Part shown: positions 3,440 to 8,255 of the stretch, piece after piece
Layout of the letters: the number at the start of each line of letters is the position of its first letter
Position numbering within the stretch: position 1 is the stretch's first letter
Origin: a virus
Direction: 5' to 3' (one strand)
DNA: 57,291 nucleotides
Virus record (IMG/VR): IMGVR_UViG_3300008954_000065
Span: 1 to 57,291 of that record
Notes under the pieces: model-generated
Seen by the model: the letters and a program-made list of their open reading frames with translations, nothing else
What the model was told of the DNA's origin: nothing
Databases searched by the model: none
Program-made: the position numbers and the translations under genes

Positions 3440-3497
3440 GGCCAGCGAAGCGAAGCGAAACGAAGCAAGGCCAGCGAAGCAAAGCGAAACGAAGCAA
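3440..3497. repeat. tandem duplication of a 29-bp GAAGC-rich unit
   Basis: Two adjacent 29-base copies, 3440-3468 and 3469-3497, differ by a single base. Each starts GGCCAGCGAAGC and ends GCGAAACGAAGCAA, and is itself built from the pentamer-like word GCGAA. The strong purine bias on this strand resembles sequence next to some initiation sites, but no known family is matched. Confidence 0.7.
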
Positions 3498-3613
3498 AAA
3501 AGTCAATAAAAACGCGGGTGTGCGCGAAAAGCGCGGATGCGGGCGGGCGCGCGGGCGCGCGGGCGCGGGCGGGCGCGCGCGCGGGGCACCATGACCCGAA
3601 TTCGGGACACAAG

Positions 3614-3728
3614 TTGCCGTACAGGATTGCCGTGCAGGATTGCCTCACAGGGTGCCTCACAGGAAAACCCCTCACAGGTTGCCGTACAGGATCACGATAA
3701 AAAACAGCGGCATAGGGTGCCGCACAGG
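3614..3728 (+). repeat. cluster of seven 12-bp repeats, consensus TTGCCGTACAGG
   Basis: Copies start at 3614, 3627, 3640, 3652, 3667, 3679 and 3717. The first and sixth are identical (TTGCCGTACAGG); the others vary at the central three bases or the first bases, while the 3' CAGG is invariant. Spacings of 13, 13, 12, 15, 12 and 38 do not keep a reading frame, which argues against coding. Further copies of the same word occur upstream of gene starts and inside genes across the rightward regions. Confidence 0.75.
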
Positions 3729-6497: not shown

Positions 6498-7243
6498 CGC
6501 CTTGACTTGCCCTTCATTGTGACCCATCCTGAACCACACTTATCAACATATGCCCTTGTTCTATCGAGGATATCGTTCCCATATATTTTCGTGAACTCAT
6601 CTTTGCTCGATCTTGTGGTGATAATGGTAGGCAATCCTTTGTCATGGCGCTCGCACAAAATAGTGCTAACCACCCGGATACAGTTGGGGCTATCACCAGC
6701 GGTAGTTTGCGGAGCCACTTCATCTAGCACAACAACCCCCCGAATAGTCATCAAATCCCTGAGCAGTTCCCCGGATTCCCCAAAAGCAGTGATACCCATC
6801 CATTCAGACCGTGCCATGAAGCGACCATTGGACCTCCAAGCCGCATACGAAGCCGCTACCGTCTTACCCACCCCATTGGTCCCAGAAAGCACCAGAACGC
6901 CTCTCACGCGCGCTGAGACATACTTATCCATTGACTCCCCAAGTTTACCTCCAAGCTTGTTGTCTTGAGACTCCGGCGTAAGCCGGAGGGTTTTCACAAA
7001 ACTGTCAGACACGGCAATCTTCCTTATCCTTGCTTCAAAATCAGTTGACCTTTGCGAATCCGTCTCATTGGATTCCACAAAGTCCTTGATTGCCTTGTCA
7101 TTTTCAACAGCACACATCATGCAAAACGCCTCTCCGCGCTCAACCAAGAACGAAAAGTGCTCAGGTATCTTCGCAGTGCATGACGAACAGGGAACATCTT
7201 TGACCAGCCCGTAGCCGTTCTTTTCCAATGTGTTATTATTCAA
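6494..7243 (-). CDS. DnaC-like helicase loader (AAA+ ATPase), 249 aa
   Basis: A zinc-finger-like N-terminus (Cys 19, 22, 41, 44) precedes an AAA+ core with Walker A GTNGVGKT (121-128), Walker B VVVLDE (170-175) and sensor-1 TT (about 209-211), followed by Arg residues in position for an arginine finger. The size and layout match DnaC/IstB-type loaders that place the host DnaB helicase on phage origins. The start is TTG at 7243 behind GAGAGG; this is needed to include the Cys pairs. It overlaps the stop of the upstream replication ORF by 8 bases, so both are one leftward operon starting near 8.33 kb. Confidence 0.85.
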   Translation of the reverse strand: MNNNTLEKNGYGLVKDVPCSSCTAKIPEHFSFLVERGEAFCMMCAVENDKAIKDFVESNETDSQRSTDFEARIRKIAVSDSFVKTLRLTPESQDNKLGGKLGESMDKYVSARVRGVLVLSGTNGVGKTVAASYAAWRSNGRFMARSEWMGITAFGESGELLRDLMTIRGVVVLDEVAPQTTAGDSPNCIRVVSTILCERHDKGLPTIITTRSSKDEFTKIYGNDILDRTRAYVDKCGSGWVTMKGKSRR

Positions 7244-7829
7244 AGGTTATATCCTCTCTGCCTGCTATCCAATCCGCTTCAGTTGCATATCCTTCATCGC
7301 GCCATGGCCCGTAGCCACCAGGCGCAGATGGGTTATCAGGCTCGCTGAAAAGAGCTACCCATTTGTCAAAATGTTTTGCGATGTGGGTGAAGGACCAGAA
7401 CCTGGGCCGGTCTTCCCAGGGGTCTTTTTTTATTCCGTGGATTGCTTGGATGATTTGGACCAGGGTGCGCCCCTCATCCAGCATTTCTTCAATCGCTTCT
7501 CTAGTTTTTTTGCTTTTGAATGAAACAGAAGAACCCAACACAGACCGATGACATTTGACCGCGACTGCCACCGCATCATTGACCGTTATGTCCGGGCATA
7601 GATCTGGATTGAGCAGCACGGATTTCCAATCCACGCTGCACGGTTCAGCCTCAGTTTCTTTTTGCTTTAGTTTTTTATTGTAATTAATAGAACTAATATA
7701 ATTAGTAGTTACACCATGGTTGTATATAACTAATTGTAACTCAGTAGTGCTATAGAATTTATAGTTAGCAGATTGACTTTTTTCTGTCAAATCATTTTTA
7801 AGTATCTGTTTTTGCTTTTCTTTTTCCAT
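7236..7829 (-). CDS. replisome organiser, C-terminal-domain-like, 197 aa
   Basis: The C-terminal 60 residues (WxxxxFTHIAKHFDKWVALF with surrounding Trp and Phe) resemble the end of phage replisome organisers that hand the origin to the helicase loader. The N-terminal 60 residues are Lys/Asn/Tyr-rich and look like a linker. The gene has its own strong ribosome site (GGAGGG, spacing 5). It is in the same reading frame as the ORF ending at 7980, and the frame between them runs through four iterons and is broken by only two stops. It may therefore be the second half of a lambda-O-like initiator. The family assignment rests on pattern recognition. Confidence 0.55.
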   Translation of the reverse strand: MEKEKQKQILKNDLTEKSQSANYKFYSTTELQLVIYNHGVTTNYISSINYNKKLKQKETEAEPCSVDWKSVLLNPDLCPDITVNDAVAVAVKCHRSVLGSSVSFKSKKTREAIEEMLDEGRTLVQIIQAIHGIKKDPWEDRPRFWSFTHIAKHFDKWVALFSEPDNPSAPGGYGPWRDEGYATEADWIAGREDITFE

Positions 7830-7878
7830 CTGTTCCCTCCGTTTTTCGGTTTTTTCCCATTTCTTTTTGTTCTTTTGC

Positions 7879-7992
7879 GTAAGGCCACGCCTTACGCTTT
7901 CGTTTTTTTGTAAGACTACCTCTTACGCTTTTGGCAACTTTGTAAGACTACACCTTACGCATTTTGCTTTTCTGTAAGACTACACCTTACGC
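7879..7992 (-). repeat. four 19-bp iterons, candidate replication origin
   Basis: On the minus strand the word GCGTAAGGTGTAGTCTTAC occurs twice exactly (7974-7992 and 7942-7960), with variants at 7910-7928 and 7879-7897. Each copy is an imperfect dyad with GTAAG and CTTAC arms. Start-to-start distances are 32, 32 and 31 bases, that is three helical turns, so a bound protein would line up on one DNA face. Spacers are A-rich on the minus strand. Position between two replication ORFs and upstream of the helicase loader mirrors the lambda O iteron region. Confidence 0.8.
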
Positions 7993-8255
7993 TTCTTCGC
8001 CCGGTATGCGCGCATATATTTCGCTGGGTGACTATAAGATGCGGGCACCCTCCCATCCGCCAGTCCTGCTTGCTCCAGCATTTCTTGTGAGATCCATTCC
8101 GGCATGTGGACCTCTGCTTCAGCAGCGGCTGAAGACCAAATGGTGATCGCTACTCCCAGACATTCGTGATGCGTGTGTCCGGTGATTTCAGCCAGCGCTA
8201 AAACGCGGGGGTCCGATATGGCATCCAGGGACAACCTTAACTGTTTCAGTGACAT
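7980..8255 (-). CDS. replisome organiser, N-terminal-domain-like, 91 aa
   Basis: The segment from about residue 14 to 62 (DPRVLALAEITGHTHHECLG then IWSSAAAEA) looks like the winged-helix N-terminal domain of phage replication proteins, where a short helix pair is followed by a LW..A helix. The C-terminus is basic (RAYRAKKRKV) and its TAG stop lies within the first iteron. Ribosome site GGGAGCGAG is well placed. It is first in the leftward operon and in frame with the ORF at 7236-7829. It could be a separate origin-binding subunit. The family call is tentative. Confidence 0.5.
   Translation of the reverse strand: MSLKQLRLSLDAISDPRVLALAEITGHTHHECLGVAITIWSSAAAEAEVHMPEWISQEMLEQAGLADGRVPASYSHPAKYMRAYRAKKRKV

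Follow-up and report, generated by a model that had tools for sequence, protein, structure and literature searches.

Organisation of the locus

The window, that is the whole stretch of 57,291 nucleotides analysed here (IMGVR_UViG_3300008954_000065), is a contig of viral origin that encodes terminase, portal, major head and tape-measure proteins, along with RecE-like, RecT-like, SSB and Holliday-resolvase proteins. On its minus strand, an ORF of 91 aa is followed by four repeats, a GGAGG sequence, an ORF of 197 aa and the gene of a 249-aa DnaC-like helicase loader (Table 1). The original prediction had placed two ORFs at these coordinates, on one strand and in one frame, and had given the second a ribosome site of its own; both points hold, the GGAGG standing 6 nt ahead of the ATG. 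The loader matches the PHROG profiles phrog_50 (E 6e-9) and phrog_3277 (E 1e-4), contains the Walker-A sequence GTNGVGKT and belongs to the AAA+ / phage DnaC-like family; its dN/dS against a sister contig (see below) is about 0.01, a figure drawn from that one pair. The scan of the replication-module genes detected no DnaB gene, and a sigma-70-like site upstream (8362-8334) scores no better than chance. Just before the early genes lies a GC-rich stretch of low complexity (3440-3692) with tandem repeats of periods 5, 13, 16, 26 and 29.

Table 1. Features of the candidate initiator locus in the window
Feature	Position	Strand	Remarks
First ORF, 91 aa	7980..8255	-	Putative shortened N-terminal (DNA-binding) domain of a phage replication initiator; TAG stop inside repeat 1
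Iteron 1	7974..7992	+	GTAAGACTACACCTTACGC
Iteron 2	7942..7960	+	GTAAGACTACACCTTACGC
Iteron 3	7910..7928	+	GTAAGACTACCTCTTACGC; contains the second in-frame stop, TAA 7925-7923
Iteron 4	7879..7897	+	GTAAGGCCACGCCTTACGC; inside a 21-bp inverted repeat, 7877-7897 (9-bp perfect arms, 3-nt loop)
GGAGG ribosome-binding sequence of second ORF	7836..7840	-	
AT-rich tract, 75.6% A+T	7655..7834	.	Probable unwinding element; also encodes the unconstrained start of the second ORF
Second ORF, 197 aa	7236..7829	-	Residues 1-62 linker; residues 63-197 putative C-terminal initiator domain
DnaC-like helicase loader, 249 aa	6494..7243	-	TTG start; 8-nt overlap with the end of the second ORF

Iterons, stops and the AT-rich tract

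The four repeats, GTAAG-N7-CTTACGC, are palindromic and 19 bp long, and their spacing of 32, 32 and 31 bp, as predicted, corresponds to 2.95-3.05 helical turns at 10.5 bp per turn, so that all four sites would lie on the same face of the helix. In the 57 kb there are exactly four copies of the palindrome GTAAG-N7-CTTAC, all of them within the array, against 0.05 copies expected from base composition; copies with one mismatch are absent from the rest of the window.

The starts of the two ORFs are 426 nt apart and the ORFs therefore share a frame, for which the chance expectation is 1 in 3. Between them this frame is interrupted, as the original prediction had it, by two stops only, a TAG (7982-7980) in the first repeat and a TAA in the third, in reading order. 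What had not been foreseen is that all the stops of the link come from the repeats: there are seven over the three frames, at least two in each, and 7/7 lie inside a repeat. The repeat GCGTAAGGTGTAGTCTTAC has stops in two of its three frames, a TAA and a TAG, and only the third is open; since the spacing of 31-32 bp puts successive copies in different frames, the array closes all three. The stops are thus intrinsic to the repeat sequence, which argues against recent nonsense mutation. Judging by this anatomy, spacing by helical turns appears to have prevailed over coding in the array.

Likewise beyond the original prediction, the array is adjoined, towards the second ORF, by the 180 bp with the highest AT content in the entire window (runner-up 66%, window mean 50%). 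Helically phased palindromic iterons beside an AT-rich tract are the layout of a lambda-type origin, and on these grounds the link and the tract together form a probable origin of replication. The link folds more strongly as RNA than shuffled sequences do (z -3.6); palindromes by themselves would give the same, and the value is not counted as evidence for an RNA function. The fourth iteron differs from the others in forming a 9-bp perfect hairpin followed by T-rich sequence on the plus strand, by virtue of which it could also terminate antisense (plus-strand) transcripts entering the array.

Conservation and selection

An independent sister contig, IMGVR_UViG_3300025770_000070, is 93% identical to the window over 4.6 kb and keeps the TAG, the TAA, the four repeats at the same spacing, the GGAGG, the ATG and both ORFs; the GGAGG is retained despite changes in the spacer that separates it from the ATG. 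All rate estimates and statements on conservation rest on this one pair, which shows 67 differences over the locus. Those in the first ORF are 21 synonymous and 4 non-synonymous (dN/dS 0.06; p 6e-9 for the synonymous excess), and those in residues 63-197 of the second ORF are 15 and 4 (dN/dS 0.08, p 1e-6). Residues 1-62 behave as an unconstrained linker (dN/dS 1.03), the other two frames of these codons being equally free of protein-level selection, and the link gives values of 1.26, 1.44 and 0.60 in its three frames, i.e. no protein-level selection in any of them. Within the link, the iteron half-sites are unchanged (0/40 positions, as compared with 13/123 in the rest; p 0.04). With two constrained blocks and no coding selection in between, the 336 nt that separate them thus behave as DNA elements.

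These data bear on two readings in which there would be no true split. The first is that a single-gene initiator was broken recently, by nonsense mutations or by a sequencing error, and that its pieces are decaying; such a view would agree with the fact that every other complete relative of the N-domain is one gene (see below), but it is hardly credible, for the 93%-identical relative shares both stops, these belong to the repeat sequence itself, and strong purifying selection has acted on both ORFs since the contigs diverged. Retention of both stops in an independent contig means that they are neither sequencing errors, which is refuted outright, nor recent decay, which is rejected also because the dN/dS of either constrained block is not near 1.

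The second such reading, that read-through or frame-shifting yields a full-length fusion and the split is only apparent, draws on the common frame, on its having just two stops and on the existence of one-gene relatives. It is very improbable and was rejected: the link lacks protein-level selection in any frame, each frame has at least two stops so that one recoding event cannot cross it, and both the ribosome site and the ATG of the second ORF are conserved. Moreover, TAA, TAG and TGA all end genes in the genome of the window.

Domain assignment of the two ORFs

Neither ORF matched above threshold in Pfam, NCBIfam, PHROGs or a PDB sequence search; tblastn with both ORFs against phages, and with the second against plasmids, gave nothing relevant, a scan of genome contigs with the second ORF detected no relative, and the relatives reached via the RecE-like gene held no recognisable homologue of either. 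Below threshold, the PHROG matches are to the N-terminus of phrog_2509 (replication initiation) for the first ORF (E 0.23, not repeated in the sister contig) and to the C-terminus of phrog_16167 (replication initiation) for the second (E 0.05; sister contig, E 0.02).

A profile of the N-domain from 13 single-gene initiators, including those of epsilon15, Rac (YdaU), phiPSA1 and Carin1, scores the first ORF at 18.6 bits, ungapped and in register from residue 5, with 7.8 for the best of 2,000 shuffles and 3.7 for the best other of 753 window frames; a larger profile (50 sequences) gives 16.2 bits. Along the same line, a profile of the C-domain from 14 initiators, including those of VvAW1, BA3 and P12026, scores the second ORF at 18.2 bits (best of 2,000 shuffles 7.5, best other of 753 window frames 5.9), a larger one of 59 sequences at 20.6 bits (shuffles at most 10.3), and hhalign of the ORF against the C-domain returns a probability of 91-92%. 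The distant homologues were reached with a consensus of the C-terminal motif as bait, and only real, retrieved proteins were used in the tests. The view that the two ORFs are putatively the two halves of a known single-gene initiator type, phrog_2509 + phrog_16167, is supported by these matches, each of about 18 bits and in families that were sought because they were expected.

The second ORF presents the phrog_16167-type C-terminal domain with its motif RLKEGYT..QIKQAI.GC..SP; it is not fused to an upstream DNA-binding domain, this being a separate ORF. The first has the N-terminal part of the phrog_2509-type domain, namely the first three helices and the DPxV and G...W positions, and lacks, in both contigs, about 22 residues that correspond to the family's fourth helix and wing. 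Hence the label of N-terminal-like ORF is borne out as to the match but applies to a shortened form: the complete domain, with fourth helix, wing and HNG motif, is not there, and 91 aa fall short of the one-gene size of about 180-340 aa. Structure prediction, one of the checks originally proposed, lends no support at the level of fold: AlphaFold models of the first and the second ORF (pLDDT 73 and 40) show no recognisable fold, and Foldseek with the former found no match in PDB or BFVD.

The shortening of the 91-aa protein leaves room for two other functional readings. One, which is unlikely, takes this protein for a regulator that binds the repeats as operators ahead of the second ORF and the loader, while the 197-aa protein initiates with another DNA-binding partner or initiation occurs elsewhere. 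Not only is the protein reduced with respect to the initiator domain, but the array lies directly ahead of the ribosome site of the second ORF, and the GTAAG/CTTAC half-site is found in pairs ahead of small gene pairs in L011, L012 and L017. The proteins that match its N-domain are however initiators, in collinear position, four helically phased palindromes beside the AT maximum of the genome have the layout of an origin, and operators for one gene need no AT-rich tract of 180 bp.

The other, quite improbable, is that the 197-aa protein alone is the working initiator subunit, with the array and the AT-rich tract as origin and some different role for the 91-aa protein. Stand-alone ORFs for the C-domain in L181 and L200 fit with this, as does the loss of the fourth helix and wing; yet constraint on the 91-aa ORF is no weaker than on the C-domain, and the gene for the 91-aa protein lies next to the iterons.

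Single-gene relatives

Both domains are found in one gene in L038 (Carin1), L057 (Vibrio phage 1.211.A), L141/L142, L160 and L171, as well as in L190, where the N-domain scores more weakly; phrog_2509 and phrog_16167 are in fact the two halves of the L057 and L038 initiators. Intact one-gene copies thus exist, and the comparison with such relatives that had been called for comes out in favour of the split, with at least five of them carrying both domains in one gene. The initiators of 1.211.A, Carin1, L141, L160 and L171 have the same domain types in the same order as the window, in Carin1 the DnaC gene is likewise next, and in several of these relatives a repeat-bearing linker follows the N-domain. 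They are, however, single proteins of 260-311 aa with a linker of roughly 60-80 residues, whereas in the window there are two proteins, their domains stand 336 nt apart with iterons and AT-rich tract, and the N-domain is shorter by about 22 residues. Epsilon15, Rac (YdaU-YdaV) and phiPSA1 share the N-domain (phrog_2509) with the window, and Rac and phiPSA1 also have a DnaC-type loader after the initiator gene; theirs is a single gene with a different C-terminal domain, which in epsilon15 is DnaT-like by annotation.

The two-gene arrangement is rare. Among 80 IMG/VR loci with the N-domain (scanned with a profile of five sequences; two cut by the contig end were left out), 78/78 complete genes are single, at least 178 aa long and none split, and 73/75 complete C-domain genes have at least 125 residues ahead of the domain. 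Adjacent genes for N- and C-domain with origin elements between them were seen in no contig other than the window and its sister. Fission in the lineage of the window is the most economical history, fusion elsewhere being the alternative. In the literature searched, of which coverage was partial, no description of a two-gene version of this initiator was found. The stand-alone C-domain ORFs mentioned above (L181:2324-2842 and L200:2327-3184) have no recognisable N-domain gene adjacent; that of L181 lies directly behind a helicase-like gene.

A proposed two-protein initiator

With domain matches in both ORFs, single-gene relatives and stops conserved in an independent contig, the split initiator originally proposed stands. 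The reading I favour, with some confidence and from sequence comparison, is a two-protein initiator with the origin between its genes and a DnaC-like loader downstream, the initiator being one protein in its relatives. The 91-aa protein, through its N-domain, would bind the four iterons on one face of the DNA, probably as a dimer on each palindrome, and the 197-aa protein, through its C-domain, would join it without a covalent link. The latter would act at the AT-rich tract, which opens, and would recruit the DnaC-like loader, which in turn would place the host DnaB helicase.

A stronger form of the proposal, on which I am evenly divided, is that the two proteins are obligate partners: the gene for the DNA-binding protein is terminated by the iteron sequence itself, the start of the following gene lies between iterons and unwinding element, the halves act without covalent linkage, and the iterons, freed from coding, could take up helical rather than codon spacing.

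The likeness to lambda, also part of the original prediction, extends to the layout and not to the family. The order of N-domain, four palindromic iterons, AT-rich tract, C-domain and loader gene is common to lambda O / ori-lambda and the window, the iterons of ori-lambda being likewise followed by an AT-rich tract (PMC7466680). Lambda O is, unlike the initiator proposed here, a single protein whose gene contains the origin; it sits as a dimer on each iteron, and its C-terminal region binds P (PMC6022878). Amber alleles truncating O to its first 160 or 205 residues are defective (PMC6022878), so that a break in O is not tolerated in lambda. As to family, the window ORFs have no match to Phage_rep_O (PF04492) in Pfam or PHROG, which rules out membership of the lambda O family; their types, phrog_2509 and phrog_16167, are those seen in epsilon15, Rac (YdaU), Carin1 and VvAW1.

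Because in lambda-type phages the origin is inside the gene and the domains are joined, the need for a covalent connection between iteron binding and helicase recruitment is difficult to assess there; a natural and conserved two-protein version would make this testable. In addition, the stops carried by the iteron in two of three frames, and its helical spacing, can conflict with coding, and the window would represent one resolution of this conflict by a phage. A case in point concerns L010 and L013, which match Phage_rep_O at 1e-22 or better and have the same GTAAG-N7-CTTAC class of palindrome in their linker. These are one-gene Phage_rep_O/DnaB_2 proteins, as opposed to the two genes of the window, and their iterons, 33 or 45 bp apart, are read in an open frame as VSKTLT-like repeats, whereas those of the window, 31-32 bp apart, are unreadable.

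In L011, L012 and L017, pairs of GTAAG-N7-CTTAC about 33 bp apart stand ahead of small two-gene units resembling toxin-antitoxin systems. Repeats of about 16 bp (GCGTTACC..) are present in L066, L067 and L069 inside the part of the gene that codes for the N-domain, roughly 160-221 nt into the initiator gene; their spacings of 22 and 23 bp contradict the notion that in-gene iterons are always spaced in multiples of three.
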